In this document: one piece after another, positions 28,707 to 46,939 of the stretch
Numbering within the stretch: the stretch's first letter is position 1
Layout of the letters: each line of letters starts with the position of its first letter
Assembly (NCBI RefSeq): GCF_014217545.1
Contig: NZ_CP043178.1
Span: forward strand, 1,798,001 to 1,862,000
DNA length: 64,000 bases
Direction of reading: 5' to 3'
Source: Pseudarthrobacter sp. NBSH8
GTDB lineage: Bacteria; Actinomycetota; Actinomycetes; Actinomycetales; Micrococcaceae
Program-made: the position numbers and the translations under genes
The notes under the pieces: model-generated
What the model saw: only the letters and a program-made list of their open reading frames with translations
Databases searched by the model: none
What the model was told of the DNA's origin: nothing

Positions 28707-28786
28707 TGGTTGGGTCCCCAGGTAGAAGTCCAGTGTCTGTGTGAGTTTCGTGTCCGAGAATGGACACAGGAGGAAATTCACGAATC

Positions 28787-29065: not shown

Positions 29066-29088
29066 GCCCCGAACCCCGCCGCCGTGCC

Positions 29089-29934: not shown

Positions 29935-29963
29935 ACGCTGGACTGCTAACGGGGGCCCAACCA

Positions 29964-31030: not shown

Positions 31031-31749
31031 GCCTGACACGTAGGGGCCGGGTGACAAATAGCGCTGCGAAAACACCGCCATTTAGCGCTGCGAGTCACAC
31101 AGAGTTTGGGGAAGACACCGGCCGAGCGTGTCAGCGTCAAGTGTGTCAGCCTAAAGAAGTGCCGCGCCCGGTAGGTGTGGGGCGCGGCCGGCGGCTGTAA
31201 CTGCTCTGGGGAGAGACAGTGGATCGTCATCCTGGCGAACGCGCCGCCGGCTGTACTCAGGGAAACCGGTGGAAACCCTGGACGACGAACCCTTACGCTT
31301 CAGGGAGTTAGCTCTGCCGCTGATTCGTAGCCAGCATGTTCAAGGCACCCATGCACAGGTTGGAGTGCGCGCCTATGGCCCGGCCGCCCAATGACGATGC
31401 CTCACCGGTATGAACCCGCATCCAGCACCGGATACGAATCGCGGAACGGGGCTGGCCCTGCGGCAAAGTAACACCGCAGGGCAACCCACCTCTCCATAGC
31501 GGGCCTCCCAATAACGCGGCGGTAACGCCGTGGGCGTCTACTGGAAACACTGCATGAGCCCATCCGAGTGAGGCGATATGACCTGCGTGAGCGCTTGGCG
31601 CGTCCCACTTCCTGAACCGGGCGATTCGAACCTCCGGACCGGGCCGGACCCACTTAACCCCCGCTGCTCGAGGCTGCTTACCGCCTCGAAGCCGGCCCCG
31701 AGCGCTGCCGGCGTTGTTGGAAAACCAAGCAAATGAGACAGGAAATCCA
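31031..31749. other. non-coding region at the start of the conflict island
   Basis: About 720 bp without a supported gene. It holds a direct repeat TAGCGCTGCGA (31059-31069 and 31083-31093, 24 bp apart), possibly a worn IS21-type end, and the direct-repeat regulator site at 31512-31528. Short open frames on the minus strand are incidental. Confidence 0.55.
31512..31528 (+). promoter_or_regulatory. SARP-type direct repeat upstream of the protease/STAND operon
   Basis: TAACGC-GGCGG-TAACGC, 11 bp start to start. Eight bases after the second repeat lies TCTACT (31537-31542), a -10-like hexamer. This is the classic spacing for SARP activators, whose gene is at 41736. The transcript would have a leader of about 200 bases. 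Confidence 0.7.
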
Positions 31750-32634
31750 ATGACTGAAACCACGCCTACGCTGAACCTTCTGGATCGACCGGAGATTCCC
31801 GAGGACGTCAAGATGCTGCTCAGGGTGATTCCGGGACAAGAACAGACCGAACAGGGTCCCCCTGAAACGGCGCCTGATGAAGGGCAAACGACGGAGCCGT
31901 ACTGTCCACCGTGGGCTACCGTCACCGACCCGGCTTCTGATGAGTCATTCTCGGTGGAGGGGCAGCGGTTCATCGCGCCTGCGGTGCACGAAGAGCCTAA
32001 TCCCATGCTGTACCCGATGTGCACTGTCGGAATCGTCTATAACAGCAACGGCCGCCGGGGGAGTGGCGTACTCGTGGGACCGAATCTGCTGTTGACGGCC
32101 GGTCACGTTGCGCCGCGGGGAGCCGCCAGTTGGAGCATGGAGTTCGTTCCCGCCTACCGAAACGGCGCCCGGCCCTTCGGCAGCTCATTCGTTCAGACCT
32201 ATCACGGCTATAACACGAACGGAAGCGTCACCGGGTACGACTACATCATCTGCAAGCTGTTCAACCCGCTGGGCAGGGCTTTGGGGTGGATGGGGGCGGC
32301 GTCGTTCGGCAACGAAGACGAGTACTACAATAAGCGGTTCGTCTCTTCCGGTTACCCTGGCACCTACGGTGATAGGCCCGCGGTGGAACTCGACATGGGT
32401 GTTCGCGACATCGACAACGACAGCCCCGGCAAAGAGATTGAATTCGCCCTGCGTGCTGATCTCGGTCCAGGTTGGTCCGGTGGTCCGTTGTGGCACCACA
32501 CCGCTAACCCCTACTGCGTCGGGGTTCTGAGCGGTCAGGAAAAGGACGGCTTGGACCCTACGCGCCTGGTTTACGCGGGCGGTGGAGCGCTCGTGGACCT
32601 GGTCCGACACGGCCAAAGCAACTGGCCCGGGTGA
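31750..32634 (+). CDS. trypsin-like (V8-type) serine protease
   Basis: A 294-aa protease. After about 85 acidic, proline-rich residues comes a chymotrypsin fold with His119 (LLTAGHV), Asp164 (GYDYIICKL) and Ser243 (GWSGGPLW). The compact layout resembles glutamyl endopeptidases. There is no signal peptide or membrane segment, so it should act inside the cell unless exported another way. The ATG at 31750 follows AGGAAA. First gene of a four-gene operon with two more proteases and a STAND-type NTPase; 46 bp separate it from the next gene. Confidence 0.9.
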   Translation: MTETTPTLNLLDRPEIPEDVKMLLRVIPGQEQTEQGPPETAPDEGQTTEPYCPPWATVTDPASDESFSVEGQRFIAPAVHEEPNPMLYPMCTVGIVYNSNGRRGSGVLVGPNLLLTAGHVAPRGAASWSMEFVPAYRNGARPFGSSFVQTYHGYNTNGSVTGYDYIICKLFNPLGRALGWMGAASFGNEDEYYNKRFVSSGYPGTYGDRPAVELDMGVRDIDNDSPGKEIEFALRADLGPGWSGGPLWHHTANPYCVGVLSGQEKDGLDPTRLVYAGGGALVDLVRHGQSNWPG

Positions 32635-32680
32635 CCCATTATTGGAAGGAACGTGTTCGCATATCTGAGGAGTCCCGCAC

Positions 32681-34438
32681 GTGGATGAAGATGCGATCCT
32701 GGACACCATCCGTCATCATGCGGCAGAGGCGGCCGGCGCCCTCCTCGCGGTCCAGTCCGGAGACAGCCCGCTGACTGTCGAGGCGATCAATGTCGTGGCT
32801 GCCCGCGTGAACAAGGATCCAGCCAAGTTCTGGCTGGAACAACTTGAGGCCATGGGACTCGTGGCGTCATTCGTCGGTGCCCTTCGCGCCCGGGGCCTTC
32901 AGCTCGAAGACACCGTCCTGGACGATCCCGTCGGCGTCATACCCACTGAGGAGCTGCGTCGGTTCCTCGCCCAGGCCCAGGCCTTCCGCTGCAGGGTACT
33001 TAAGAATAATCGTGTGGCCGGTAGCGGCGTGCTCGTTGGACCGAGCCTGGTCCTTACGTCCTGGCATGTCATCGCCGTCGCTGGACCGGGGAAACCGCAG
33101 GAGCCCGCACCGAACTTGGAGGTCCTGCTTGCCGACAACATGAAGTTCGCCATTAAGGTCCCCACAATATTTCAGTCAGAATGCGGCGATGCTGAGTATG
33201 AGAGCCGCGCACCCCTCAAGGACTCGGATGTCAATGACCGCTACGATGTAGCCCTGCTGAAGATGGTTCTGCCTGCTGCGACCCACCTCGGGCACGTAAG
33301 ACTCATGTCGCCCCCGCCCCTGCCCAGAAACAGGGGCCGCGTTGTCCTGATCCACTTCCCGGGTGGGACGGACCATGTCATCGACTTCGGCTTCGCGGCC
33401 AAGATCAGTAACGTCACAGCCCGATGGCGTCACAACGTCCCTACGGCAGGTGGCTCGTCGGGCGGAGCGTGCTTTGACAAAGACCTCCAGTTCATTGGGA
33501 TCCATCAAGGTGAGTTCGACGCCAGGGCACGATTTATCCCCGCCGGGAGCTTCATCAATTCGATTGTGGACCACATCCGTAACGATGTAGCACCACCGAC
33601 GCTCTGGTCGCTGGATGGGACGGTCAGCGGACCTCTCGTCATCGGCCGCAACCAGTTCTTCCAAGCCATCGCCGAGGCCGGCCACGCCGCCGGTCGCGTC
33701 CGCGGCGTGCGGATCAAGCGGGCCGTCATCGAATCCACCTCGACGGGTCTCGGATTCAGCCACGACATCCTTCAACAACTCCTCGTCCGCCGAGGCCCCG
33801 AGCATTGCCTGGTCCGCATCATGCAGGATCAGATCGTGGATGACCTGGTGGCCGACATCCGCCGCAGAGTGCGGCTCGGAGGACTGGACCTTCCCGAACC
33901 CCTTCCCGAACAAGCCAGCGCGGCAGCAGGTCAGGCGCCACCGGAAGCGGCTGCCAGGGAACGGGCAGAGAATCTTGCTGCAGCAATAGAAGCGGCAGCG
34001 GCCAAGGCAGGAAGGACAGTGTGGTTATTTATCGACAATCCCACGGTGCCATTGACGGAAGCTGCCCGCGTCACAATCGAAGGCCTCGTCGGCGCATCCC
34101 TCACCAAACCCCGGCTGCGGCTCGTCATCGCAGGACTCGAGACGCTTACCCTTCCAGGTCCCGAATTCGCAGGTTTGCCGGCCACTGAGACCGACCGTTC
34201 GCCCGGCCTCGTCGTCGAGTTCATCGGAGACTTCCGCCGCGCCGACATCCTCGATCTGCTCACCGTCGCATCGATGGATTTGACCGGCGCCGTCGAGGAG
34301 GGCCGGGTCGCGTACGCGACCGATCGTGCATTGTTTGACCTCCCTCACGTCAACGGTCTCTACGCTCAGGAACTGCTCGCTACCGTCAGCGAACGCCTTA
34401 GGGCCGACCTGCGACTCATCGCGGGCGGCGGCGGATGA
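32681..34438 (+). CDS. trypsin-like protease with N-terminal helical domain and degenerate NTPase-like C-terminus
   Basis: 585 aa. Residues 1-75 are helical and resemble effector-associated adaptor domains in position and size. A trypsin fold follows with His129 (TSWHV), Asp189 (RYDVALLK) and Ser260 (GGSSGGACF). Residues 310-585 begin GPLVIGRNQFFQAI, as STAND modules often begin, and later have VWLFIDNPTVPL and LRLVIAGLETL resembling Walker B and the next strand, but no GxxxxGK(S/T) is present; I infer a pseudo-NTPase. GTG start after GAGGAG. It overlaps the STAND gene by 4 bp (ATGA). Confidence 0.82.
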   Translation: MDEDAILDTIRHHAAEAAGALLAVQSGDSPLTVEAINVVAARVNKDPAKFWLEQLEAMGLVASFVGALRARGLQLEDTVLDDPVGVIPTEELRRFLAQAQAFRCRVLKNNRVAGSGVLVGPSLVLTSWHVIAVAGPGKPQEPAPNLEVLLADNMKFAIKVPTIFQSECGDAEYESRAPLKDSDVNDRYDVALLKMVLPAATHLGHVRLMSPPPLPRNRGRVVLIHFPGGTDHVIDFGFAAKISNVTARWRHNVPTAGGSSGGACFDKDLQFIGIHQGEFDARARFIPAGSFINSIVDHIRNDVAPPTLWSLDGTVSGPLVIGRNQFFQAIAEAGHAAGRVRGVRIKRAVIESTSTGLGFSHDILQQLLVRRGPEHCLVRIMQDQIVDDLVADIRRRVRLGGLDLPEPLPEQASAAAGQAPPEAAARERAENLAAAIEAAAAKAGRTVWLFIDNPTVPLTEAARVTIEGLVGASLTKPRLRLVIAGLETLTLPGPEFAGLPATETDRSPGLVVEFIGDFRRADILDLLTVASMDLTGAVEEGRVAYATDRALFDLPHVNGLYAQELLATVSERLRADLRLIAGGGG

Positions 34439-37400
34439 GCATCGAAGAGGGCCGCCCATTCATCGAACGCGCCCGGAGGCTTGCTGCGCTCTCCGGTCCC
34501 TTCGATCCGGGAGCGCTGCTGAACATGCTCGGTGATGTCTCAGCAGACGCCGCCCTGGCTGTCACCGTCAACCTGGCCAACGCGTGTGACACGAGCAAAC
34601 CGAGCGGGTGGTTGATGCGCGGCACCGTGCGCCGTCGCGAACTTGCGGCGTTGGAAGCCGGAGGGACCCTCGACTCGGAGATCCGTTTGCGGCGCCAATA
34701 TCCGCGGGATCCCGCTACCGAGGCACTACTCGACGCCCTCGCGGGAGTCTCCCCCTACACTGGAGCAGGAATCACACACCTGCTGGAGCCACCGCTGGAC
34801 CGTGACTCGCTCGCGCGTGTGGCCACGGCGCTTGATCGCGCTGGCCCGCAGGCGGCCGCCCACCAGGCCCTGGCATCCGTCCGCTCTGCGCTGGGGCGTT
34901 TTGATGCGGACGCCCGTGCGCAGCTGATGCAGGACAGAGGTTTCTACGGCCGGCACGCCGAGATTGCGCAGGCCGAACGCTGGCTCAGCCGACCGTTCAC
35001 AGATGGGCCGGTAGCCGCCCTTTACATCACCGGACTTCCCGGAATCGGGAAATCGACGCTCATCGACGAGACGGCCCGCCGCGCAGGCATCCAGGCCCCG
35101 CCGTGGCTGGTCGTCCGGCTCGACTTCGACCGTGGGGGACTGGACATTCAGGACCAGGTCGGTCTCACTGTAGAGATAAGCCGCCAAGTCGCGCTTGAGT
35201 CGGGTCCGACCACGTCGCCGCTTCGTCAAGCCCGCTTGGCAGCGGCGGGAGCCGGGTCGTCTCCGGACGGAAACATCAAGGGTTCCGGGCGCCAGCACAT
35301 TCCCCAGGAACTGTCGCGGGTGCTCGGCGAGACCGTCCGCGCCGTCGGCCGCCCGGTCCTGCTGATCCTCGACACGGTTGAGGTGCTTGGGGGCCGGGGA
35401 GAGACGCACCCGCTTCGCCTATTCGAGACTATCGACGAATTGTGCAGACAAGGGCTGCGCCCGCTGGCGGTCATCGCGGCCGGCCGGGGGCCAGCACTCG
35501 AGAGTGTGCCGGAACGAGTGGGCGAACGGATCGAGCTGGGCGGACTCGACGACGAGAACGCCGACCGCCTGCTCAGCCGCTACGACGCGGGGTCCGACAT
35601 GTTCCAGCGCATACGTGAAGTATCCGATGGAATCCCGCTCCTGCTCCGGCTGGCTGCCTTGGCTGTCCGCCAGTCCGGACCGATGGCGCTAGAGGGCGTC
35701 TCCGGACAAGGAGACCTCGCGGCCGTCTATCTCTACCGCTTCCTGCTGTCCCGAACCGGTGATGAGAACCTGCGCCTACTCGCGCAGCCCGGCCTCCTGA
35801 TACGCAGGCTCAACCCCGACGTCATCGCCGAGGTGCTGGCGCCGCACGTAGGGCTGGATGACATGCGGGCGCCCGATGCAGTCGCCGCTTTCGAGGCGCT
35901 GGCCACTCAGCACTGGCTGGTTGAGCCTGACGCCGTGCCAGGCTGGGTCCGCCACCGGCCGGACGTGCGGGCCTCCTTGCTCGAACTGCTGTACAACGCC
36001 GGGGAACCTTCCACAACGGCCGGCCTGAACCTGAGGGCCGCGAGATGGTTTGAGCGACGCCCCGAACCGTTCGCGCAGCTCGAGGCCGCCTACCACCGCC
36101 TTCAAGCGATGCGCTCGGGCGGACGGCCTCCTCGTATCGCACCGGAGATTCTTCAACAGCTGGACCGCCAATCCGTCTCGGAACTGCCCGCGGCCGCACA
36201 GGACCTCGTACGGGACTCCATCGGCCTGCGAACGTCGAAGTTCCGGCGCGGCTCGAAATCTGCTCTCTCTGTGGACCACGAGGGTGCCGCCCGCGAACTC
36301 GAAGCGACCCTTGAGCGTGGGGATGTCCGGGAAGCCGCCTATGTTTACGGGAGGTCCTTCGGCCAAAGCCCTGGTGCCCCTCACTCACCGGCCTTAGACG
36401 TGGCCCGCTCCTTCTTGTGGCGCGCGGGCCGCTGGTCAGATGCCCTGCACGGGTTCGATCCGCACCGGTACTTCGATGGCCGCTTTCGCGAGAGGGCGCC
36501 GACAACTACCCTTGCCCACCTCGAGATGTGGGCCGAGTCGGGATTCGCAGCCCTCGAGAGTGCATTCACGGCGGACCCGGGGCTGGCTGAACTCGCCACC
36601 GAGCTGCGTGAACGGGGGTTCAACGGTTCGCTGGCCAACGGAGCCCTCGGGTTCGCACTGGTGCATACCGGCGCACCAGAACTGCGATCTTCATGGGGTG
36701 TGAGCGATCCCGTCGATGCCGCGGCCGTGGTTTGGTCGCCGACGACGACGTGGGTGTCCGGCGTGCAGTCACCGCAAGTGCTCGATTCGCTGGCGGTGCA
36801 GGCCAGCCGGTTCGCGGCGAACGTGTCTTCACCGACCACCACGGTCAGGGAGACGAACTTGCCGGTCCCAAGGGCACCCGACCTTGCCACGCCGGCCGGG
36901 GCAGCACGTGTCCTCGCCAGTGCGACGCCCTACGGTCCGGTCACAGAGACGATGCAGCAGTTGGATCCGGGCGATGCCATGCTCCGTCATCTCGCGCGCA
37001 CGGACTTTGAGCTGGCCGAGGCCGGCGGCCTGCCGCCCAGGGGTGCGGGGGACTGGAGTATCTCTCCTGCGGCTTCCCCGGGCGGGTCAATCCAGAACCT
37101 TGCCGCGCTCGGTCTGCTCGCCGAGTGGCTAGGGGCAGCCGCCGTCGCGCTCCGTCGTCCAGACCTCCGGCTGCTCGCTCGAAGTTCCGAACGATGGCGA
37201 CGCACGTCAGCGGGCCAATGGGCCTATCCATCACGGCTGACCAGCCACCCTCCGTCTTGGACGCGACGCCCGGACGAAACAATGGTGGACCGTATCGCCC
37301 AGCTCGACTCGGAAGAGGCCTGCCTCGAACAAATCCGGATCTGGTCAGGCGCAGTGAACCCTGGGAAAGCCTGGGAAGAGTTCCAACGCCTGCGCCGGCG

Positions 37401-37539
37401 CTACCCGGCCGCCGATCGAGAAGCGCGACGCTCGGCGCCGGACGATGCCGCGGCGGCTCTGCTCGCGCGCCATGTCCCCTCTGCATTCGTGCCACCCATG
37501 GCGGTTCTCTATTCGTTCGAAAGGAAATGGTCACTATGA
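34435..37539 (+). CDS. STAND-type P-loop NTPase
   Basis: A 1034-aa cytosolic signalling NTPase. Residues 1-170 are a helical region; Walker A is GLPGIGKST (200-208) and Walker B VLLILDTVEV (308-317), followed by a winged-helix-like part with GGLDDENADRLLSRY. The C-terminal half is helical, possibly degenerate TPR-like sensor repeats. STAND proteins oligomerise on ligand detection and activate partner effectors, here presumably the proteases and nuclease coupled on both sides (ATGA overlaps). No transmembrane segment is visible. The trigger is unknown. Confidence 0.87.
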   Translation: MSIEEGRPFIERARRLAALSGPFDPGALLNMLGDVSADAALAVTVNLANACDTSKPSGWLMRGTVRRRELAALEAGGTLDSEIRLRRQYPRDPATEALLDALAGVSPYTGAGITHLLEPPLDRDSLARVATALDRAGPQAAAHQALASVRSALGRFDADARAQLMQDRGFYGRHAEIAQAERWLSRPFTDGPVAALYITGLPGIGKSTLIDETARRAGIQAPPWLVVRLDFDRGGLDIQDQVGLTVEISRQVALESGPTTSPLRQARLAAAGAGSSPDGNIKGSGRQHIPQELSRVLGETVRAVGRPVLLILDTVEVLGGRGETHPLRLFETIDELCRQGLRPLAVIAAGRGPALESVPERVGERIELGGLDDENADRLLSRYDAGSDMFQRIREVSDGIPLLLRLAALAVRQSGPMALEGVSGQGDLAAVYLYRFLLSRTGDENLRLLAQPGLLIRRLNPDVIAEVLAPHVGLDDMRAPDAVAAFEALATQHWLVEPDAVPGWVRHRPDVRASLLELLYNAGEPSTTAGLNLRAARWFERRPEPFAQLEAAYHRLQAMRSGGRPPRIAPEILQQLDRQSVSELPAAAQDLVRDSIGLRTSKFRRGSKSALSVDHEGAARELEATLERGDVREAAYVYGRSFGQSPGAPHSPALDVARSFLWRAGRWSDALHGFDPHRYFDGRFRERAPTTTLAHLEMWAESGFAALESAFTADPGLAELATELRERGFNGSLANGALGFALVHTGAPELRSSWGVSDPVDAAAVVWSPTTTWVSGVQSPQVLDSLAVQASRFAANVSSPTTTVRETNLPVPRAPDLATPAGAARVLASATPYGPVTETMQQLDPGDAMLRHLARTDFELAEAGGLPPRGAGDWSISPAASPGGSIQNLAALGLLAEWLGAAAVALRRPDLRLLARSSERWRRTSAGQWAYPSRLTSHPPSWTRRPDETMVDRIAQLDSEEACLEQIRIWSGAVNPGKAWEEFQRLRRRYPAADREARRSAPDDAAAALLARHVPSAFVPPMAVLYSFERKWSL

Positions 37540-39521
37540 CAACGGCGCAACAGCGGCTGCAGGAATCCCCAATGCTGAGGGCCGCCCTCGAAAAACAGGT
37601 CGCCGGCGGCCTCCTCGCACGAATGGGGCTCTCTAGCCTCGCCGTAACCGGCCTTGGCAGCCACCCGGCCAGAAGCACGGCCGACCAACTCGAAAACGTC
37701 AGCTCAATGGACGACCTCGAAGCGATTGTGCAGCGCGTGGGCCGTCCACCCCTGCTGATCAAGAACAACCAAGTGGTCCTCGGCGCGGGGCAGGACGACA
37801 GCCTGGACGATTTCCCGCCCGGAACGGACGCCCGGATCCGCGGCACGGAGAAGACCATCCCATCGGTCGGCCGGGTTGAGTTCGCCAATTTCCGCTTGGC
37901 CTGGGGCGGAACAGGTTGGGTCATTGCGGCGGAAGGCGCCGATCGGATCGTGGTCACCAACCGTCATGTGGCCGCGCTTGTGGCACGTCGCACGGCCGAC
38001 GGGCAGGGGATCTTCATGCGCGACCCATCCCAGATTCGCTATGGAGCGTCGCTCGACTTCAACGAAGAGTTCGGCAGCCTCGCCAGCGAGGCGACGCCCT
38101 TCACTGTTGTCGACGTCCCCTACCTCGCCGACACAACGTCTCCCGATGTGGCGTTCCTGCGGATCACGGGGAAGAACCTGCCATCACCGTTGGCGCTCGC
38201 GGACAGTGATGCCGCCGTCGGCGATCTCGTTGCACTTGTTGGCTACCCTGCGTATGACGACCGCAATGACGCCTCTGACATGGCGAGGTATTTCCGCGAT
38301 CTGTACGACGTTACGCGATATGCACCCGGGAAGATCCTGCAGGCCCTGGCGCCCGGGGTTGCCTTGCGTTACGACTGCACCAGCCTCGGGGGCAACTCAG
38401 GCTCGCCGCTGATCCGTCTGGTGGATGGCAAGGTGGTGGGCCTGCACTACTCCGGAATTTATGGGCGCTTCAACAGCGCGGTGGGGGTTGGGACGCTGCG
38501 GGACCTGCTCGACGGCAGGCGTCCCATTTCGATCACTGCCGCCGACGCGGGGACTGCCGAGGCACGCCGGGACGGAATCCATAACCCAACAGACCTTGCG
38601 GGTCGCGCCGGCTACGATCCCCATTTCCTGGGTACGGGTGACCTCGCGGCTCCGTGGCCGGTCATATCGAGTACCCTCGCCGCCGATCTGGCAACGCCGA
38701 GCGACGAACTCCCGAGCCAGCCGTCCGAGATCCGTTACACACACTTCGGGGTGAAGTTCTCCCGCAGCCGCAGCCAGCCGGCAATGACGGCGGTCAACAT
38801 CGACGGACAGCATCACGTTGCCATCAAGCGCGGGGACGATAGATGGTTCCAGGACGGGCGGATCCCCCTCACCATCCAGCTTCGCAAGGAGGATTACGCC
38901 CACCCGGACATTGACCGCGGTCATCTGGTCCGGCGCGAGGATCCGAACTGGGACGACACACCGCCGGCCGGTGGCCCCGGGGAGGAAGCGAACGGGCTCG
39001 CCCGGAGGGCCAACGACGACACTTTCCACTATACGAACGCCGCCGTCCAGCACGGTGACTTCAATTCCAGTTCCCAGCTTTGGCTCGGACTTGAAAATTA
39101 CATCCTGACGAGCATCAAGACGCACGGCTTCAAGGCGTGCGTCTTCACAGGGCCGGTGATGCGGGAAGACGACCAACAGATCGCACCGGGCGTGATCGCG
39201 CCACGGGAGTTCTGGAAGCTTGTGGTCATGGAGGCCTCCGGGACGCGCGCGCTGCATGCGACGGCCTACGTGATCAGCCAAGGAGAAATGATTCGGGAGT
39301 TGCTCGAACGTCGCGCGCGGACGGAGGCCGTGGAGGGATTCGTCCTTGGCGCGTACCGCACGTTCCAAATCGCGATCGCCGACCTCGCCGAATCGACCGG
39401 ACACGACTTCTCCCGGTATGTGCCGTTTGATCCGTTAGGAGCGGTGGCCGCCCAAGAAGAAGCAGCCCACGTCGAGCCGCGCTACCTCCCGCTCGACGCA
39501 GTCCACCAAATAGTGCTGTGA
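37536..39521 (+). CDS. trypsin-like protease fused to EndoG-like (NUC1) nuclease
   Basis: 661 aa. A 110-residue leader, then a trypsin fold with His144 (TNRHVAAL), Asp204 (SPDVAFLRI) and Ser288 (GGNSGSPLI), then a beta-beta-alpha-metal nuclease (about 400-650) with the DRGH motif (460-463) and the Asn pair in YTNAAVQHGDFN, as in NUC1/EndoG enzymes. That suggests an effector that cleaves protein and DNA or RNA, possibly released by proteolysis. Start 37536 has AAGGAA 9 bp upstream and overlaps the STAND stop (ATGA). No signal peptide. Confidence 0.88.
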   Translation: MTTAQQRLQESPMLRAALEKQVAGGLLARMGLSSLAVTGLGSHPARSTADQLENVSSMDDLEAIVQRVGRPPLLIKNNQVVLGAGQDDSLDDFPPGTDARIRGTEKTIPSVGRVEFANFRLAWGGTGWVIAAEGADRIVVTNRHVAALVARRTADGQGIFMRDPSQIRYGASLDFNEEFGSLASEATPFTVVDVPYLADTTSPDVAFLRITGKNLPSPLALADSDAAVGDLVALVGYPAYDDRNDASDMARYFRDLYDVTRYAPGKILQALAPGVALRYDCTSLGGNSGSPLIRLVDGKVVGLHYSGIYGRFNSAVGVGTLRDLLDGRRPISITAADAGTAEARRDGIHNPTDLAGRAGYDPHFLGTGDLAAPWPVISSTLAADLATPSDELPSQPSEIRYTHFGVKFSRSRSQPAMTAVNIDGQHHVAIKRGDDRWFQDGRIPLTIQLRKEDYAHPDIDRGHLVRREDPNWDDTPPAGGPGEEANGLARRANDDTFHYTNAAVQHGDFNSSSQLWLGLENYILTSIKTHGFKACVFTGPVMREDDQQIAPGVIAPREFWKLVVMEASGTRALHATAYVISQGEMIRELLERRARTEAVEGFVLGAYRTFQIAIADLAESTGHDFSRYVPFDPLGAVAAQEEAAHVEPRYLPLDAVHQIVL

Positions 39522-39527
39522 CCCTGC

Positions 39528-40631
39528 TCAGTCGGCGACTGCCGAGTGGGCTGTAAGGAGTTCTACGAGCCGATCGTTGAACACGGAAGCGGAGTTACGC
39601 TGGCTTTCCGAATTGACGATCTCCAGTCCACGGAGCGACTGCTCAGCCATCTTGGCTACCTCTTCGGCGGCCTCCGGGTAGAGCAAATGAAGCCCTCGTT
39701 TGTCGCCCGCCGACAGATCATTCCCGGGGCCAGCGGGAGCGCACGCGCTGGGACTCGACTTGTAGAAGAACGGAGCGAAGCGATAGAGCATCACCGAAGA
39801 GGAATCGAATTCGCCCATCACCGAATTTGGGTCATTCGTTGTGCGAAGGTTGTGGTCCACCTTGGCCTTCGACCACCTGTTGGGCGGTCCGGCGAGGTAG
39901 GTGTAGATACCTGGCCTTTTGCCTGCAACATCGGGGACGAACACGCCCCTTGGGTCGGTCGTCGGTACGTATCCGGGGTCGTTTTCCCAGCGGAAGTCCG
40001 CCTCGCAGGGGCCGCGGAAGTTCTGGTGTTCGTGCTTGAACGCCAGAGCGTGCATGAACTCGTGCCGGACGGTTCCCTCCCAGCCCTGGGGCTTGGACAC
40101 CTTATAGCCGCCCAGGTTCAGGCTTCGCTGATTCGGCATGCCGCCGATCGGCCCACCGGACGGGTCTATCGTGCTGTCAGTGCTGTCGGTGCCCACCAGC
40201 GACCAGTAGCCGTTCGTGTCGAAGCTCACTCTGATCTCAGCCTTCAGCTGGGTATCGCTCAGCGTCCATCGTCTGTACGTTCCGGCGTCGAACCCGAAAT
40301 CGAGTGTGAGATTCATGGCGGCGGAAAGTTGTTCTGTCGCTGTTGCGACATCGGCGTGGAGTGCGGAGTCTCCGTCGAGGAACGCGACCCGCACCACCGA
40401 TCCCACCGGCCACCTCTGCAGATCTGCAACTATGAACTCAAGAGCTTCGATGTTCTCTGCCAATTCCCGACGCCAGGCATCCCGGACTTCAAGGGCAGCC
40501 ACCACCCCGTCCGGAAGCGCTTCGAGCGTCTCGCCCAGCCTGCGAGTGTCAATGTCGAGGCCCTCGCTGAGGCGGTCTGCTACGCCATCTTTGGCTACCG
40601 CTGTGCGTCCGTCCCGTGGTCCAGCCATCAT
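39528..40631 (-). CDS. astacin-like (M12A-type) zinc metalloprotease
   Basis: A 367-aa zinc protease. HEFMHALAFKHEHQ (His190, Glu191, His194, His200) matches the astacin signature HExxHxxGFxHE with Ala in place of the Gly, and SSVMLYRF is the Met-turn. Astacins usually carry signal and propeptides; this one starts MMAGPRDGRTAV with no export signal and a helical 100-residue N-terminal region. Its stop is 7 bp from the nuclease stop, convergent. A regulator-type direct repeat lies about 85 bp upstream, so it is probably co-regulated with the opposite operon. Confidence 0.87.
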   Translation of the reverse strand: MMAGPRDGRTAVAKDGVADRLSEGLDIDTRRLGETLEALPDGVVAALEVRDAWRRELAENIEALEFIVADLQRWPVGSVVRVAFLDGDSALHADVATATEQLSAAMNLTLDFGFDAGTYRRWTLSDTQLKAEIRVSFDTNGYWSLVGTDSTDSTIDPSGGPIGGMPNQRSLNLGGYKVSKPQGWEGTVRHEFMHALAFKHEHQNFRGPCEADFRWENDPGYVPTTDPRGVFVPDVAGKRPGIYTYLAGPPNRWSKAKVDHNLRTTNDPNSVMGEFDSSSVMLYRFAPFFYKSSPSACAPAGPGNDLSAGDKRGLHLLYPEAAEEVAKMAEQSLRGLEIVNSESQRNSASVFNDRLVELLTAHSAVAD

Positions 40632-40714
40632 GCACCATCCGTTTCCTGGTTGAGTCTTCGCATCATTAAGGGCGATGAATCGTATCCGCCTTCGGCCGCA
40701 GTATGGTCCGGGAG

Positions 40715-40731
40715 GCGTTACGGAGCCGTTA
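40715..40731 (-). promoter_or_regulatory. SARP-type direct repeat upstream of the metalloprotease
   Basis: On the minus strand TAACGG-CTCCG-TAACGC, 11 bp start to start. CATACT (40705-40700) follows after 9 bp. The start point would fall about 60 bp before the metalloprotease ATG. Confidence 0.6.
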
Positions 40732-40921
40732 CTGCGTCGTGGTGCTTCTCAACCATCAGCTCACGCTCGTCCCGCCAACGCGCCGGGCGTAAGGGGTAGT
40801 CGCGGGGGCGGATGACCATCGATGAGGGAGCGTCTTCCTCGTGGCAGTTCAGCCAGATACCGGTGATTTCAGCTGAAGGACCGGTCATGGCTCTCACCGC
40901 CCGGCTGGAGTCATCATCCAC
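40718..40921 (-). CDS. small protein, 67 aa, unknown
   Basis: The GTG at 40921 overlaps the stop of the upstream fragment (GTGGATGA), a translational-coupling arrangement. The product is charged, with MVIRPRDYPLRPARWRDERE and MVEKHHDAVTAP, and contains ITGIWLNCHEED. No family was recognised. Its 3' end contains the metalloprotease promoter site, so it may be partly fortuitous. Confidence 0.4.
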   Translation of the reverse strand: MDDDSSRAVRAMTGPSAEITGIWLNCHEEDAPSSMVIRPRDYPLRPARWRDERELMVEKHHDAVTAP

Positions 40922-41336
40922 CCGTAGTGTTGACGCTGTCACCGTTGAGCGCGGCCCGGATGTCATCCAGCATCAACATCGCGTTGTGTTTGTCTTGGCG
41001 GAGCCGTTCGACCGTGCCGGAGACGGAGCAACTCCCTTTCCCCGTGGGGCTTAGGCGAAGCAGCCGCGGCCCGGCAGCCAGTTCCGGCGTGGAAGGGTGC
41101 GGGGACGGCGTTACTGTGGGGGCCGCCGTGGTTGATGCGGGAGCAGGCCCTGTTCCGGCGCGCGTCAGCGCGAAGGCCGGTGCGGCCAGGAAGGAAGCCC
41201 GGGCACGCTCCATGCATGCGTCCATCCGCCTCGACTGGCCCTTGGTGAACATCAACATGGCAACGTCGTCGGGGTAGTCCATGTAGTTCAAGAACCCAAC
41301 GCATGAAGCATTCGCCGTCGGCTGCTCCGTCCTCAA
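40914..41336 (-). pseudogene. metalloprotease C-terminal fragment (M43-like)
   Basis: The N-terminal part reads NYMDYPDDVAMLMFTKGQ then SRRMDACMERAR, very like the region after the Met-turn of M43 (pappalysin/cytophagalysin) proteases, NYMDYxxDxCMxxFTxGQ. The HExxH helix is missing: a TAA stop lies just upstream in this frame, so it starts at TTG 41336 or ATG 41283. A proline/threonine-rich tail and a helical end (RLRQDKHNAMLMLDDIRAAL) follow. A regulator repeat lies directly upstream, so a truncated protein might still be made. Confidence 0.5.
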
Positions 41337-41735
41337 TCTCGGGCATCGCGCGTTACCCGGGCGTTACTGCTGTCCCGAAGTGGCAGGTAGGCGCCCCGTC
41401 GCAGGGGACTGCTGATCCGCCGTCGGACTTTCAAGAGGGTGCGGTAATAATAGACCGCTAACGCATCGGCCGGCGTTCGCGAACCTATTTGCGTGAGCGG
41501 ATTAGGCGTCGCCTGCATTGGATGTATATATCCAGAACGGATTCCCAGCCGTTAGGCCCCTTGGCGACCGCGGGACATCATCCATTTCCGTTGACTGGCT
41601 TGAAGATGGTTTTTTCGGATAGTCAGCTCTCGACAATAAAAATTGGAAGCCAAGCATATTGACATTATCCAGCGTTTTGGGGATCCTCGTTTTACCTGCT
41701 CTAAACACTTCAGACCGAACCGGAATCAGGCTTCC
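41337..41735. other. non-coding region upstream of the SARP gene
   Basis: About 400 bp between divergent units. It contains the minus-strand direct repeat at 41350 and, toward the SARP gene, a degenerate pair TAATAG-N5-TAACGC at 41448-41464 and an isolated TTGACA at 41659. No coding sequence is supported. Confidence 0.5.
41350..41366 (-). promoter_or_regulatory. SARP-type direct repeat upstream of the M43-like fragment
   Basis: On the minus strand TAACGC-CCGGG-TAACGC, both halves perfect and 11 bp start to start. The hexamer 8 bp downstream (CGAGAT) is a poor -10, so this site may be inactive or need another spacing. Confidence 0.5.
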
Positions 41736-42524
41736 ATGGGCGACGACGGCTATGGAGAATTGAAATTGGATCTACTTGGGTCGTGGCGGCTTCGCCGGGG
41801 CGCGGTGGTCCTCCATGTTGCAACACGTCAGCAACGCCTTATCGCGGCGCTGGCCATCCGGGGTCCGAGCCTCCGCAGTTATCTCGTTGGTCAGTTGTGG
41901 CCGGAGTATCCTGATGCCCGGGCGCTGGAGAGTCTGCGTGTGACTGTTCACCTGATTTCACGGCAGGTGCCCGGTTTGATGGTCAATGCGGGCGCGATGC
42001 TGTCCCTGACCGATCACGTTGAGGTGGACCTGCATCGGATCCGCGCCCGGATCCGTGCCCTGGGCCAGGCCGGGTTTGACGGCGACGTTGCCTCCTCGTT
42101 GCATGAGTTGCGTGATGCGGAGGTGCTTCCGGGCTGGTATGAGGACTGGGTGATTTTTGAACAGAGCAGGCTGCGGCAAGATCGGCTTCGCGCTTTCACG
42201 GCAATTTCGCGTCTGTCACTCGCCCGGGGTAATTCTGAGGTGGCAGGGGCAGCTGCAGAAGCCGCGTTGGAAATTGAGCCGCTATATGAGAAAGCGGTAG
42301 GGCTTCTCATCGCTGCGGAGATGCGGCAGGGCAATCCCGCCGCTGCGCTTAGCGCCTACGAACGGTACCGGGGGAAACTTGAGGAGGACATGGGTCTCCT
42401 GCCTTCCGATTCCGTCAAAAGTCTCATAGCTGGCGCCCTTGACCGCCAAGCCCGGGCAAGGGAGGAGCGCCTACCGGCCAGCGTTTCCTGGCTGACCGGC
42501 GAGCCAGCCTTGCACCACTCGTAG
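41736..42524 (+). CDS. SARP-like transcriptional activator (winged helix + BTAD)
   Basis: A 262-aa regulator. Residues 10-95 are an OmpR-type winged helix (LKLDLLGSWRLRRGAVVLHV, then PSLRSYLVGQLWPEYPDARA); residues 96-245 are a bacterial transcriptional activation domain (VEVDLHRIRARIRAL, LPGWYEDWVIFEQSRLRQDR, AALSAYERYRGKLEEDMGLL). SARPs bind heptamer direct repeats with 11-bp period near the -35, exactly the sites found upstream of the neighbouring genes. The start at 41736 is chosen by homology. Its 3' end overlaps the convergent 145-aa gene by 54 bp. Confidence 0.9.
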   Translation: MGDDGYGELKLDLLGSWRLRRGAVVLHVATRQQRLIAALAIRGPSLRSYLVGQLWPEYPDARALESLRVTVHLISRQVPGLMVNAGAMLSLTDHVEVDLHRIRARIRALGQAGFDGDVASSLHELRDAEVLPGWYEDWVIFEQSRLRQDRLRAFTAISRLSLARGNSEVAGAAAEAALEIEPLYEKAVGLLIAAEMRQGNPAAALSAYERYRGKLEEDMGLLPSDSVKSLIAGALDRQARAREERLPASVSWLTGEPALHHS

Positions 42525-42908
42525 GACCTCGTCGGGGTCAGCGGTGGACACCGCGCTTTGGGCAATACCCGGAGTTTCTCTGTAAGTTATTCTCGCCCGG
42601 AAACTCTTAGTGTGACCGGACTCAAGCCATTTGCTGATGATCATCGTTTGTACTTCCGGCATATCGGGGTAGGGGTCACCAGCTTCATCAGCGGAGCCTG
42701 ACCATCGGTCGTCTTTGATCATGATAGCCATCCACTCCCCGTCTTTACCCTCATCCATTTGGAGCGTCCGGACTTTCAGGCACCCAAACCAATCCCTACC
42801 AGCCTGCGAGATGCCTGACCGGTTCAAAGTAGTGCACTTCTTCTGGTTGTTACGATCCTGCTGCAGAAGTATCAGGAGTTGGCCCACCTTTACGAAATAA
42901 TGGCTCAA
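42471..42908 (-). CDS. hypothetical protein, 145 aa
   Basis: No family was recognised. The protein is soluble and mixed alpha/beta, with WFGCLKVRTLQMDEGKDGEW, DDRWSGSADEAGDPYPDMPE and a C-terminal helix DPDEVLRVVQGWLAGQPG. Support for a real gene comes from the promoter site 28-45 bp upstream of its start (direct repeat plus TGTACT) and composition like its neighbours. It is convergent with the SARP gene. Confidence 0.6.
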   Translation of the reverse strand: MSHYFVKVGQLLILLQQDRNNQKKCTTLNRSGISQAGRDWFGCLKVRTLQMDEGKDGEWMAIMIKDDRWSGSADEAGDPYPDMPEVQTMIISKWLESGHTKSFRARITYRETPGIAQSAVSTADPDEVLRVVQGWLAGQPGNAGR

Positions 42909-42949
42909 GATTCAGCTGAGCTCACCCTTGAACCCAGTACAGCGTGACC

Positions 42950-42966
42950 TCGTTATTGCTGCGTTA
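42950..42966 (-). promoter_or_regulatory. SARP-type direct repeat upstream of the 145-aa gene
   Basis: On the minus strand TAACGC-AGCAA-TAACGA, 11 bp start to start, then exactly 8 bp to TGTACT (42941-42936), which matches the -10 consensus at four of six bases. Confidence 0.7.
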
Positions 42967-43037
42967 CGACCCTGAGCTGGAGACACGTCTTGTGGCAGGG
43001 TTCACGGTTCATTAACGCTGCCCCCAAGGTCTGCCGG

Positions 43038-43054
43038 TAACGCCGCCGTAACGC
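43038..43054 (+). promoter_or_regulatory. SARP-type direct repeat upstream of the lipase-like gene
   Basis: TAACGC-CGCCG-TAACGC, 11 bp start to start, 8 bp before TCGACT (43063-43068). The lipase ATG is at 43135. Confidence 0.7.
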
Positions 43055-43134
43055 CTCCATGATCGACTCACCACATAAGCGTGCACCTCAGTGCTTCCTG
43101 GCAGGTGCATCCGTTTTTGGATAAGGAATACAAG

Positions 43135-44724
43135 ATGGGCTACCCGGGCGACGACGGCAGGCTCCCAGTGATTTATGTCCGGGGCTTCGCAGGCAGCGGA
43201 TCGGCTATAAACAGCGCCGTGGACGATCCCTTTTATGGCTTCAGCCAGGGATCGGTACACGTCCGTGCTGACAGCAACGGAAGGGCGAAATTCCACCAGT
43301 TTGAATCCCCGATGCTGCGGCTGGTAACGGACCACAAATATGAGGTACCCGTTCACGGGGATCAGTGGGCTTTCCTGAACAGCGTGGAAGCCGGCACTGT
43401 GAATTCGGCGTCCGTGTGGATCCATCGTTTTTATGATGGATCCGCCGATTCGTTTTCTGAAGAGCCGGAGAGTTTTTCATTCGAGAACGCCGCCCGCAGC
43501 CTGTTCAACCTGATCAAACTCGTGTTGGAGAAGACGGGTGCGCCAAAGGTCTTTCTTGTTGCGCACTCCATGGGTGGGCTGATCTGCCGCTCACTCCTGC
43601 AGCGGGTCATCCCAGAAGCCCTCGTAGACGTAGGCGGGGAGATCGACCCCGCCGCAGGGAACAGGTATGTGGCAAGGGTGTTCACGTACGCCACGCCGCA
43701 TGGGGGAATCCGCTTCGCAATAGGTTTCGGGATTTTTGAGCGCATCCGCGACGCCACAGGAATCCAGGGGACAGACGTCTTCGGCCCCGACCGGATGTAT
43801 GACTACCTCACACCGGCAGCATTGAGACTGGCGCGGACGCGCGACGACTTCAAACCGACTGAGCTCCCAGATGACGGGTTTCCGGTGGACGAACTGTTCT
43901 GTCTGGTCGGTTCGAATCCAGAGGACTATGACGTGGCGTTCGGTCTGTCCTCTAAGGCGGTAGGAGCCCGCAGCGACGGCCTCGTCCAGATCGACAACGC
44001 CGCCGTTCGCGGGGCACCGCTGGCCGTGGTGCATCGCAGCCACAGCGGACGCTACGGCATCGTTAACTCAGAGGAGGGCTACCAGAACCTTCAGCGGTTC
44101 CTCTTCGGGGACCTCAAAATCCAGGTGGAGCTCGTGGGCTTTACTGTCGGCAGGGCCGCCCCACCCGAGGTCGAGTTCCAGCTCGACGTCGGACTGGCCA
44201 TAAGGGGTCTACCCGTCCTGGTCCATGAGCAAAGCGCCGCCCACTTCTGTCCCGTCCAGATCGAGCACTGGAAAGAAGGGGACCCCATAGACTCACCCGT
44301 GCCGCTGCTGACGACCTTCCTTTCGTCGAAAGCACCCCGTCCGCGCGTGGGAGGCAAGGAAGTGCCCCGGTTGCGTCATGCGCTCAAACTCCGGCTGATG
44401 TCCATCACCGAAAAGGAAGGACGCTTCTTCTTTGACGACCATATGGAACAGACCGAGGACTGGCAGGACACCCTGCTAGTTGACATCGAAGCGCCCTCGG
44501 CAGGCCGGCCGCTGCCCAAAGCATGGGCCGCGTGGAACAGTACCATTCCTACCGCTCTCCGTGACTGGGACCCCGGCCACGATGATCAGCTGAAGGACAC
44601 CGACAGCACACCCGAACGCTGGCAAGGACGCATCGACGTCCCGGAATTCGCTAAAGCCCTGCTTGGAGTCCACGCAGGCATCCGCCTCACCGTTACCCCA
44701 CGGAAGCTCATCCTCTCAAAGTAG
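43135..44724 (+). CDS. lipase-like alpha/beta hydrolase (PGAP1/esterase type)
   Basis: A 529-aa protein. The hydrolase core has VIYVRGFAGSG (oxyanion region) and the nucleophile elbow VAHSMGG (Ser145), with VVHRSHSGRYGI as the likely catalytic His near residue 302. The C-terminal 220 residues are beta-rich (IQVELVGFTVGRAAPPEVEF, FFFDDHMEQTEDWQDT) and may bind substrate or partner. The ATG at 43135 has AAGGAA upstream. No signal peptide, so an intracellular lipid-attacking effector is possible, comparable to lipase effectors in other prokaryotic conflict systems (inference). Confidence 0.8.
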   Translation: MGYPGDDGRLPVIYVRGFAGSGSAINSAVDDPFYGFSQGSVHVRADSNGRAKFHQFESPMLRLVTDHKYEVPVHGDQWAFLNSVEAGTVNSASVWIHRFYDGSADSFSEEPESFSFENAARSLFNLIKLVLEKTGAPKVFLVAHSMGGLICRSLLQRVIPEALVDVGGEIDPAAGNRYVARVFTYATPHGGIRFAIGFGIFERIRDATGIQGTDVFGPDRMYDYLTPAALRLARTRDDFKPTELPDDGFPVDELFCLVGSNPEDYDVAFGLSSKAVGARSDGLVQIDNAAVRGAPLAVVHRSHSGRYGIVNSEEGYQNLQRFLFGDLKIQVELVGFTVGRAAPPEVEFQLDVGLAIRGLPVLVHEQSAAHFCPVQIEHWKEGDPIDSPVPLLTTFLSSKAPRPRVGGKEVPRLRHALKLRLMSITEKEGRFFFDDHMEQTEDWQDTLLVDIEAPSAGRPLPKAWAAWNSTIPTALRDWDPGHDDQLKDTDSTPERWQGRIDVPEFAKALLGVHAGIRLTVTPRKLILSK

Positions 44725-44769
44725 CTGGCGAGTTTGAGTGGGTGGCGGGTTCAAAACCCCGGGGGTTGG

Positions 44770-46410
44770 TCAGCGGCTAAAAGCCGATGCCTGCCTAATG
44801 TCGCGGAGTTCCGTTTGCATGGCGTCGATCGCCGCGCCCGCCGCTTTGCGCCAATCTTCGATTTGTTGGGATGTTGTCCCCTGGGGTGGACTATCGGAGC
44901 TGCCGGATGGGGCAAGAATGTTCATCAGTTCATACAACCTGTCCAGAGGCCGGCTGCGGCGGTCCGGCGTCATTGTCGATGTGTAGCTCGACAGCCGCCC
45001 AAGAGTGTCCTTCACCTGCACAGCGGTATCGCGGGCGCTTGCAGAGCCGAATATCAGGCCAGAGTCGAGGTCTCTGACATGCGCTCTTAGTAATCCGACG
45101 TCGCGCATTGCATCAGTAATCCACGGCGCAGTACTCCTGGTTGTTTCCATCAACGACAGGTAGCGTCCTAAATCGGGTGTATCCGACAGAGTCTGCGCCT
45201 CGCCGGACCGAAGGAAACTAGAGAATTCATGGGGTAATACTCCGACGTCGGGCCAGATGTCTTCGAAAGCGGTATCCTCACCTGATCGGAACCTCTTCAG
45301 CGTGTCGACAAATACATCTGGTTCAGCCAGTACCACCTCTTCATAGATCTGCTCCCAGTCGCCGCGGAAGTCAATTGTCTGAAGTGCGAGCATCGTGTCG
45401 GGCTCCAGATCCGGGCGGACCATTCGGTTGAGCGTGTAGGCATTGATGTAGCGCTTGACTTCTCGGGGATTGATTCGACCTTCTGTGGCTACATACCTCA
45501 GATATTTGCGTACCCGTACGTTGAGGTCGATCTGTTGCTCAGGAGCCAGCTTGCCGTGAACGATGAGCCACTGCAGAAGGTCGTCCAGCTGGCCAGCCAT
45601 CAAAGGGGGAAGTGTGTATGGGACTTGGAACATTTTCTTCAGGTAGTCCCGCTCCAGCTGTCGATCAATGTTCAGTCCTCCAGGTTGCCCTGCGAACTTT
45701 GTCCTGACCGCCGATTCGACCACGCGTTCATCAAGCCCAACGACAAAGATGAAGCCTGGCATGTCGAAGAATAGCTTCATCGACTCCAAGACAGTTAGTG
45801 ATTGCTGCGGGAGGCAGCGGTCGAGGTCATCGACAAACACGACAATCCGCGACAGCCCAGCTTCCCGCACTTCAGAAAAAGCCGACGTCAGCTGTTGAAA
45901 GGCTCCAAAGTAGAGGGACTGTGCGGTGGCGCCAATATCGTCAGGATGAGTCACGAACTCGTCTAGGGCTTTTCCCGGATCAAGGGAGAACGTGGGTCCA
46001 CTGGGAACGCCAATTTCAATTCTTGTTGAGCGAACGAGGGCCCTCACAACCTGCCCGATCTGCCGCGTAATTTCCCTCATTTTGGTTTGCTGCGCTGCGT
46101 GCTCCACCTGGGTTGCCCATTCAGCGAGAGATGACCTTATCGTGTCGAGGAGCGGAACGATGAGATGCGATTCGCGTTCATATCGCCAGGCGTTGAATCG
46201 GACGATGATCGCAGTCTCATCTTGCGCAATGAGCTGTTCGATCTCATCCATAAGCGTGCTCTTACCAGAACCCCAGCCGCCGAAGATGCCAACGGCGAAA
46301 CGAGGCTCACTGGTTTGAACGATCTGGGAAAGTGCCTGCGCAATCTGAGTGAATCCGAGGGATGGATTCTTCGCGGGCACATCGAGGAGGATGTGGCCGA
46401 CGTATGTCAT
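44770..46410 (-). CDS. KAP-family P-loop NTPase
   Basis: A 546-aa NTPase. Walker A is GGWGSGKST (44-52), VRFNAWRYERESHLIVPLL follows as in KAP proteins, and Walker B is RIVVFVDDLDRCLPQQ (188-203) with the extra Asp typical of the family. Many KAP NTPases carry transmembrane segments inserted after Walker A; none is visible here. The ATG at 46410 with GGAG five bases upstream is preferred over 46428. Its composition is visibly more AT-rich than the flanks. Convergent with the lipase gene, 45 bp apart. KAP proteins are often found in phage-defence islands. Confidence 0.88.
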   Translation of the reverse strand: MTYVGHILLDVPAKNPSLGFTQIAQALSQIVQTSEPRFAVGIFGGWGSGKSTLMDEIEQLIAQDETAIIVRFNAWRYERESHLIVPLLDTIRSSLAEWATQVEHAAQQTKMREITRQIGQVVRALVRSTRIEIGVPSGPTFSLDPGKALDEFVTHPDDIGATAQSLYFGAFQQLTSAFSEVREAGLSRIVVFVDDLDRCLPQQSLTVLESMKLFFDMPGFIFVVGLDERVVESAVRTKFAGQPGGLNIDRQLERDYLKKMFQVPYTLPPLMAGQLDDLLQWLIVHGKLAPEQQIDLNVRVRKYLRYVATEGRINPREVKRYINAYTLNRMVRPDLEPDTMLALQTIDFRGDWEQIYEEVVLAEPDVFVDTLKRFRSGEDTAFEDIWPDVGVLPHEFSSFLRSGEAQTLSDTPDLGRYLSLMETTRSTAPWITDAMRDVGLLRAHVRDLDSGLIFGSASARDTAVQVKDTLGRLSSYTSTMTPDRRSRPLDRLYELMNILAPSGSSDSPPQGTTSQQIEDWRKAAGAAIDAMQTELRDIRQASAFSR

Positions 46411-46939
46411 CGCGACTCCATTGGTCAAGTGGAAGCGGAAATCGTCGGGGCCACGAAATTCAGCAGCGATTCTGAAATCGCAGCGACCCCAGCACTATCC
46501 CGATCACTCCATCTTTGGGATAGGGGTCCTGCCACGTTGGCCGTCCAGCCTCCGTTGTCGATAGCCCCAGGGCCAGAAGCGAGAGCGACGTCCCGCCTGA
46601 AGCGACGGAGCCGCGCGGTGGACCGGACGGCCCAGACGCGCCTGTTGTCCTGAGCATGACGACCGCGGTTCTCATACTGACGAAGGCTCCTGAGCTTACT
46701 TTCTACAGTGTTTGCTGACTCGATTCTGCTACCGCAGCGTTATCAGCGCGTTACAGGGCCACGAGGCTGGCTGGACTGGCGATGTGACCAATACCTCCCG
46801 ATCGCGGTGACAACACCGAACTGATCTTCGTCCGGCATGCCTGGACGCCGGTGGCCGTCCCACTGGCGGCCACCGGTCGATCACGCCGGAGGGTCGTGGA
46901 GGTCGTTGGCTGCAAAGGAAACCGTTCCGGAATGATGAG
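46411..46939. other. upstream region of the KAP gene and island edge
   Basis: About 530 bp. It contains the direct-repeat site at 46737. A 71-codon minus-strand open frame (46460-46675) follows that promoter but shows no homology and its ribosome site is poorly placed. Nothing else was recognised. Confidence 0.45.
46737..46753 (-). promoter_or_regulatory. SARP-type direct repeat upstream of the KAP gene
   Basis: On the minus strand TAACGC-GCTGA-TAACGC, 11 bp start to start, with CAGAAT (46728-46723) exactly 8 bp downstream. The leader to the KAP start would be about 300 bases. Confidence 0.65.

Follow-up and report, generated by a model that had tools for sequence, protein, structure and literature searches.

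In the present study, a 64,000-nucleotide stretch of the Pseudarthrobacter sp. NBSH8 genome (NZ_CP043178.1, positions 1,798,001 to 1,862,000) was analysed, with emphasis on a small Streptomyces antibiotic regulatory protein (SARP) and the island of protease, nuclease and NTPase genes around it. This whole stretch is referred to as the window, and positions are those of the window unless stated otherwise. The results are best read as showing a small SARP that acts as the activator of an exchangeable arsenal of conflict type rather than of antibiotic genes. Herein, we propose an explanation in three parts, namely SARP-driven island promoters, a conflict arsenal and a small partner protein that modulates the SARP, and we assign to it as a whole a probability of roughly 0.8. 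First, two copies of the 262-aa SARP would sit side by side on a pair of TAACGC half-sites placed one helical turn apart. Second, the bound pair, just upstream of weak -10 elements, would recruit RNA polymerase as AfsR does. Third, five island promoters would be switched on, those of a trypsin/STAND/trypsin-NucA operon, a metzincin, the partner, an alpha/beta-hydrolase and a KAP NTPase. The products might then form a protease cascade that frees a nuclease upon infection, or might be used to attack rivals.

Direct repeats confined to one island

The original prediction held that a TAACGN-N5-TAACGN repeat occurs six times in the window and joins otherwise unrelated effector genes into one SARP regulon. 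All six sites are present: TAACG-N6-TAACG has six matches in the 64 kb against 0.01 expected, and the maximum among shuffles was one, with no shuffle reaching six. The plus-strand start positions, 31512 and 43038, were right, while the four on the minus strand had been placed one base low and are corrected to 40716, 41351, 42951 and 46738. A -10-like hexamer lies downstream of five of the six sites, at 8 bp in four and at 9 bp in one, and all five hexamers were verified where they had been predicted; none follows the site at 41351. A scoring matrix built from 125 sites of other genomes, none of them from the window, recovered exactly these six sites at 24.3-35.6 bits and nothing further above 6, with a maximum of 13.5 bits on five shuffled windows.

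The predicted SARP-type site TAACGCGGCGGTAACGC (31512..31542, +; 35.6 bits) faces the trypsin/STAND/NucA operon, with TCTACT at 31537-31542 (+), 8 bp after TAACGN. The metzincin gene is faced by TAACGGCTCCGTAACGC (40700..40731, -, repeat start 40716; 30.2 bits), in which CATACT (40700-40705, -) lies 9 bp after TAACGN. Ahead of the partner gene is TAACGCAGCAATAACGA (42936..42966, -, repeat start 42951; 26.9 bits), with TGTACT at 42936-42941 (-) and a distance of 8 bp. The same distance is found in TAACGCCGCCGTAACGC (43038..43068, +; 33.7 bits), which faces the alpha/beta-hydrolase gene and has TCGACT, preceded by TGA, at 43063-43068 (+), and in TAACGCGCTGATAACGC (46723..46753, -, repeat start 46738; 24.9 bits), which faces the KAP gene and has CAGAAT at 46723-46728 (-). 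The remaining direct repeat, TAACGCCCGGGTAACG (41351..41366, -), faces a remnant frame; it scores 24.3 bits with a negative hexamer part, and is perhaps a dead promoter.

In the whole genome of 4,060,736 bp, the exact TAACG-N6-TAACG motif was found six times, every match being one of the island sites within 15.2 kb, which argues against an equal frequency of the motif across the genome; the reversed-pattern control gave eight matches (2 + 6). Scanning the genome with GTAACGCNGCNGTAACG at up to two mismatches gave 17 matches, five of them island sites (three of three at no more than one mismatch, two of 14 at two mismatches). Among the 12 near-matches outside the island, no T..A.T or TA...T hexamer stands 8 or 9 bp downstream, and their number is close to that given by the control (10). 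On these grounds, the idea of weaker sites outside the island was rejected.

It might be argued that the sites are not operators but chance matches or copies of a mobile or repeated element, since the whole set sits in a single island with a transposase remnant nearby. The six central bases vary among the sites, as do the flanks, while the distance to the -10 is fixed, which speaks against a copied element, and the expectation of 0.01 sites speaks against chance. We therefore regard this explanation as very improbable.

Promoter layout and motif number in related genomes

The spacing of the repeat was exclusive in related sequences. In the window and 20 SARP regions (864 kb), 41 TAACG pairs were found at 11 bp, and no other spacing between 5 and 40 bp was seen more than twice. 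Among 200 distinct sites from 26 genomes, a -10-like hexamer (T..[AC][ACT]T or TA...T) was observed at offset 8 or 9 in 119 (48 at 8 and 72 at 9), compared with a mean of 2.55 at each of 20 other offsets, and TG stands one base ahead of the hexamer in 27 cases. According to the portion of PMC10936776 consulted, repeats in SARP promoters are 11 or 22 bp apart and the 3' repeat lies 8 bp from the -10, and the layout in the window, which had been described as the known SARP layout, agrees with that description.

One target promoter is conserved across genomes. Orthologues of the alpha/beta-hydrolase with 80-85% identity were found in 13 other genomes, all carrying a close SARP, and the site is kept in 14 of 14 orthologues, 38-102 bp ahead of the start codon (11 exact and three with TAACA as the first half). 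T..A.T is present at 8 or 9 bp in 13 of the 14, and the exception, G025, has TCAGCT. Site-anchored pairwise identity was 85% within the site, 57% in the -10 stretch, 29% upstream and 36% downstream; the 85% is partly by construction, since the site is the alignment anchor, which the -10 stretch is not. Distant hydrolase homologues occur in G032, which has a close SARP, and in G056, which has none; neither has a site.

A survey of 199 genomes, our own included, revealed a SARP homologue (E <= 1e-8) in 80. Close orthologues were defined by at least 50% identity, the own genome included, and distant SARPs have 38-43%. Of the 121 genomes from the same genus, 39 carry a close SARP and average 6.79 sites, and the other 82 average about 0.9; of the latter, 71 with neither SARP group average 0.83 and 11 with only the distant SARP average 1.64. 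At least three sites were found in 33 of 39 close-SARP genomes vs four of 82 others (Fisher 3e-19; Mann-Whitney 5e-17; kinship ignored). The reversed control pattern did not differ between close-SARP genomes and the others (2.82 vs 3.29, p 0.29). Likewise, in 79 named loci, partly from the same strains, the 53 loci with a close SARP have 90 sites over 1.05 Mb, and the 26 with a distant SARP have nine over 0.50 Mb. Thus, the prediction of a regulon joining unrelated effectors is supported by the restriction of the motif to the island and by the way its number tracks the SARP orthologue across the genus, and further by the exclusive 11-bp spacing, the fixed -10 distance in relatives and the target promoter kept in 14 of 14 cases.

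The repeats might be bound by another protein, such as the large BTAD protein or a SARP of a different group. The genome does encode a second BTAD protein, three relatives have a site ahead of a different SARP (about 32-34% identity), and G051 and G065 have a distant SARP with one site upstream. Nevertheless, motif number tracks the close SARP orthologue, genomes with only the distant SARP average the 1.64 sites given above, and the sites in the window surround its own SARP. Binding by another protein is thus improbable in our view, and the small SARP of the island is the preferred candidate.

Several results weigh against a SARP-driven regulon. First, the hexamer is missing in 81 of 200 sites, and its pattern was picked after the first 41 sites were known. 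Second, six of 39 close-SARP genomes have only one or two sites, and four of the 82 others have three. Third, same-genus genomes are not independent, so the p-values of the genome comparison are too small; the effect is nonetheless large. Fourth, no exact site was found in four of the twenty 40-kb SARP regions (those of G074, G116, G058 and G088); as these genomes have 3-14 sites each, the regulon does not always lie around the SARP. Fifth, the matrix scan of the window revealed no site upstream of the SARP gene itself. Sixth, in the AlphaFold model of the SARP the C-terminal part is confident while the DNA-binding half is poor, with a mean predicted local distance difference test (pLDDT) score of 61. 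Seventh, more ordinary genes were also met downstream of sites in relatives, such as a GH16 gene and a LacI-like frame (by eye), so that some sites might be chance matches or the regulon might be wider.

The SARP and its small partner

The SARP gene (41736..42524, +, ATG at 41736) encodes a protein of about 262 aa with a predicted DNA-binding half and a BTAD domain (PF03704, 58.2 bits, cut-off 22.1), and no further domain follows the BTAD in the Pfam scan. Homologues of 263 aa begin at the same residue, and the named relatives are mostly from Arthrobacter and Pseudarthrobacter. Over residues 5-229 the protein aligns to the AfsR SARP domain (8hvr, E 2.6e-8), and a match to EmbR was also found (2fez, E 3e-4). 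The putative winged-helix (OmpR-type) half has no match to Pfam Trans_reg_C, the AfsR alignment running from residue 5; the N-terminal half is predicted as strand-strand-strand-strand-helix-helix-strand-strand, with low confidence there. As had been stated, this is the only SARP in the window: the genome has two BTAD matches, and the second, a 1049-aa frame at genome position 1,072,850, lies outside it. Autoregulation of the SARP was considered and rejected, the matrix showing no site before its gene.

The partner gene (42474..42758, -) lies tail-to-tail with the SARP gene, which it overlaps. It had been read as a 145-aa gene; the protein is probably 95 aa long from the ATG at 42758, the length of the database copy. 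The partner itself has no Pfam match, and its family shares a core like TLVIRTWxEP..GFRARxTY..TADPxEVLxVVRxWL. Fifty-four matches were found in 40 of the 199 genomes, and 50 of these have a SARP no more than 1 kb away, as measured against 72 SARP places, mostly the strongest. In 34 cases the partner follows the SARP on the opposite strand, in 14 it precedes it on the same strand and in two it precedes it on the opposite strand; 37 of 44 close-SARP loci have a partner. An exact SARP-type site ahead of the partner was found only in the window, G040 and G069. In Pfam and NCBIfam, no shared family was found up to E 1, the best result being three of 36 members with one antitoxin model (E 0.025). 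The predicted structure is beta-beta-beta-alpha, with pLDDT mostly about 90 and a disordered N-terminus, and its best match in the Protein Data Bank was not significant (E 0.6). This small protein family beside the SARP is undescribed. The partner probably modulates the SARP, and as a guess it could be an anti-activator or a sensing co-factor. The family offers a concrete candidate for the input to which a small SARP responds.

Island genes as a probable conflict arsenal

Ten island proteins were scanned against Pfam. Three contain a trypsin-like domain, which in one case is joined to a NucA-type endonuclease. The operon begins with a trypsin-like peptidase in a 306-aa frame (31714..32634, +; PF13365 33.2 bits, PF00089 25.4 bits; TAGH and GWSGGP by eye), for which the ATG at 31750 is the likelier start. 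It is followed by a 585-aa protein (32681..34438, +) in which a trypsin-like domain (PF13365, 46.4 bits) is flanked by uncharacterised N- and C-terminal parts, and by a 1034-aa STAND-type NTPase (34435..37539, +; PF13191 48.3 bits), whose homologues were found in two other genomes among the 199, both carriers of a close SARP. The last frame, of 798 aa (37125..39521, +), encodes the trypsin-NucA (Endonuclease_NS) fusion (PF01223 139.8 bits, PF13365 58.5 bits; DRGH by eye); it probably starts too early as called, the actual start lying close to where the STAND gene ends.

On the opposite strand, the metzincin gene (39528..40631, -) has an astacin-like HEFMHALAFKHEH motif by eye and matches PF01400 at 18.4 bits, below the cut-off of 22.5. 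The neighbouring 140-aa frame (40914..41336, -) is probably the remnant of a longer gene. The label of an M43-like fragment that it had received was not confirmed, as it has no Pfam match; related stretches adjoin the SARP in G050, G083, G025 and G061. The alpha/beta-hydrolase, which is lipase-like (43135..44724, +; PF00561 25.8 bits, at the cut-off), is the best-conserved target. The KAP-family P-loop NTPase (44770..46428, -) matches PF07693 at 143.6 bits and the PADLOC models for QatA, PDC-S20 and PifA, and the trypsin-NucA protein gave weaker PADLOC matches (nacht 31.9 bits, RT-Protease_XI 16.6 bits); no PADLOC model matched the other eight of the ten proteins.

No obvious signal peptide was seen in the window's targets when read by eye rather than with a program. 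This absence, together with the target families, makes conflict the most likely job of the arsenal. A regulon is also conceivable in which the targets are scavenging or developmental hydrolases, and the M4, M10, S8 and GH16 targets in relatives could be digestive. The by-eye absence of signal peptides in the window's targets, the STAND and KAP NTPases and the trypsin-NucA fusion argue against hydrolases of this kind, as do the caspase, CHAT, eCIS core and sheath genes among the targets of relatives (eCIS, contractile injection). We consider a scavenging or developmental purpose unlikely, at perhaps one chance in four, and prefer a conflict role.

Predicted targets in related genomes

Downstream genes were collected from 17 genomes chosen for high site counts and then clustered. 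Genes were called by an open-frame and GC3 rule without a gene caller, so some frames are wrong; sites in identical context were counted once, and of triple repeats only the downstream pair was used. There were 111 listed cluster representatives of at least 120 aa, of which 78 from relatives were scanned against Pfam (9 + 10 + 59) and five are window genes; in the scan of 59, those named here are from the first 25 of 72 families, and eight of the 59 were rescanned singly. Among the families listed, first genes after a site include the peptidases M10, M4, M6, M14 plus S8, S8, trypsin, M28 and M66, NucA, caspase, CHAT plus caspase, KAP, GDSL lipase, tail sheath, eCIS core, FHA, TcdB/SpvB, Shedu, histidine kinase and BTAD regulators.

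These results support the conclusion that SARP promoter grammar is used for exchangeable conflict-type effectors beyond the window. In related genomes, SARPs of this group stand over different and often larger sets of comparable character, so it seems that new effector modules join by gaining this one promoter. A broader hypothesis, for which we would put the odds somewhat below even, is that the Arthrobacter-type SARP lineage is a master switch of an exchangeable conflict arsenal, in which modules gain a TAACGC-pair promoter and the dedicated tail-to-tail small protein senses for or restrains the SARP. The modules, newly acquired, would comprise trypsin/STAND/NucA operons, caspase and CHAT proteins, subtilases, KAP ATPases and, in some genomes, contractile-injection and Tc-like genes. 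If this is true, cell-death and defence effectors are deployed as one regulon and not system by system.

Relation to known systems

The SARP resembles the small SARPs and the AfsR SARP domain of Streptomyces in its BTAD and in a sequence match along the whole SARP domain. The promoters resemble SARP promoters, as described in PMC10936776, in that their direct repeats have an 11-bp period and the 3' one ends up about 8 bp from the -10. They differ in the TAACGC half-site of the island and in a spacing of 8 or 9 rather than 8, and the island targets are proteases, nucleases and NTPases, not antibiotic genes. With respect to half-sites, it is the TCGAG-like ones that antibiotic SARPs prefer. SARPs are known as activators of antibiotic clusters, a location that is typical of known SARPs but not defining. 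No biosynthetic Pfam family was found in any of the ten island proteins, and therefore the SARP of the window is not in an antibiotic gene cluster.

The operon at 31.7-39.5 kb resembles 'System 3' of Kaur et al. 2020, described in the portion of PMC7159879 consulted as trypsin and NucA, sometimes with a STAND NTPase, for which a proteolytic cascade was proposed; the operon has the trypsin-NucA fusion, further trypsins and a STAND NTPase. By the Pfam results it contains the core of that system, trypsin and NucA fused or in one operon. The same portion places 'System 3' mostly in alphaproteobacteria, with the trypsin fused to the STAND protein, whereas in the island these two are encoded separately and are accompanied by a SARP and shared predicted operators. 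In a subset of 'System 3' loci, the STAND NTPase bears a Death-like domain at its N-terminus together with trypsin. SARP, BTAD and AfsR do not occur in the main text of PMC7159879. The KAP protein is like the QatA, PifA and PDC-S20 defence ATPases in its P-loop domain and its PADLOC matches to all three; it differs from QatA in its score of 148.3 against a cut-off of 600 bits, and Qat models matched none of the other nine island proteins scanned.

No description of a SARP regulon of conflict effectors was found among the open-access papers searched, a scope outside which most subscription papers and all preprints lie. In the part of PMC13170358 seen, SARP, Streptomyces and contractile injection system are mentioned apart and unlinked. 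The occurrence of SARP promoter grammar ahead of STAND, caspase, trypsin-nuclease, KAP and contractile-injection genes across the genus suggests that systems studied separately may share one activator. In addition, the short exact motif allows effectors to be predicted directly, from the genes that come after a TAACGC pair in any genome with the SARP.

Contractile injection as the general purpose of the regulon was rejected for this genome, which gave no eCIS_core match. In a survey of 120 genomes, strong same-genus eCIS_core matches were found in G015, G019, G029, G032 and G036, all with a close SARP, and weak matches (E about 2e-4 to 6e-4) in seven more same-genus genomes, of which only G050 and G061 have a close SARP. 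In G019 and G029, none of the listed sites lies near the eCIS_core gene. Two divergent SARP-type sites in G085 have a tail-sheath gene on one side and an eCIS_core protein on the other (L167:1573-7295); this genome was not among the hits of the survey and may lie outside that sample.

Regulators were also observed next to sites. The first genes after sites in G015 include those of a 1019-aa AAA-BTAD regulator and a histidine kinase (L160:569-3625 and L158:7173-9008), and regulators may accordingly be targets of the regulon. A third SARP type has a TAACG-pair site directly ahead of it in G015, G058 and G114 (L097, L163 and L171), which suggests cascades or autoregulation between SARPs. The distant SARP (about 38% identity) of G051 (L193) and G065 (L194) has one conserved upstream site, TAACGGTGCTGTAACG, pointing away from it. 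The next genes in L193 are glycosyltransferase-like by eye, so the distant-SARP branch may serve a different purpose. In the window, integrase-core (rve) transposase fragments lie just left of the island (28249-30960, -), and a GGDEF diguanylate cyclase gene (26943-28169, +; PF00990 135.7 bits) is also found to the left.

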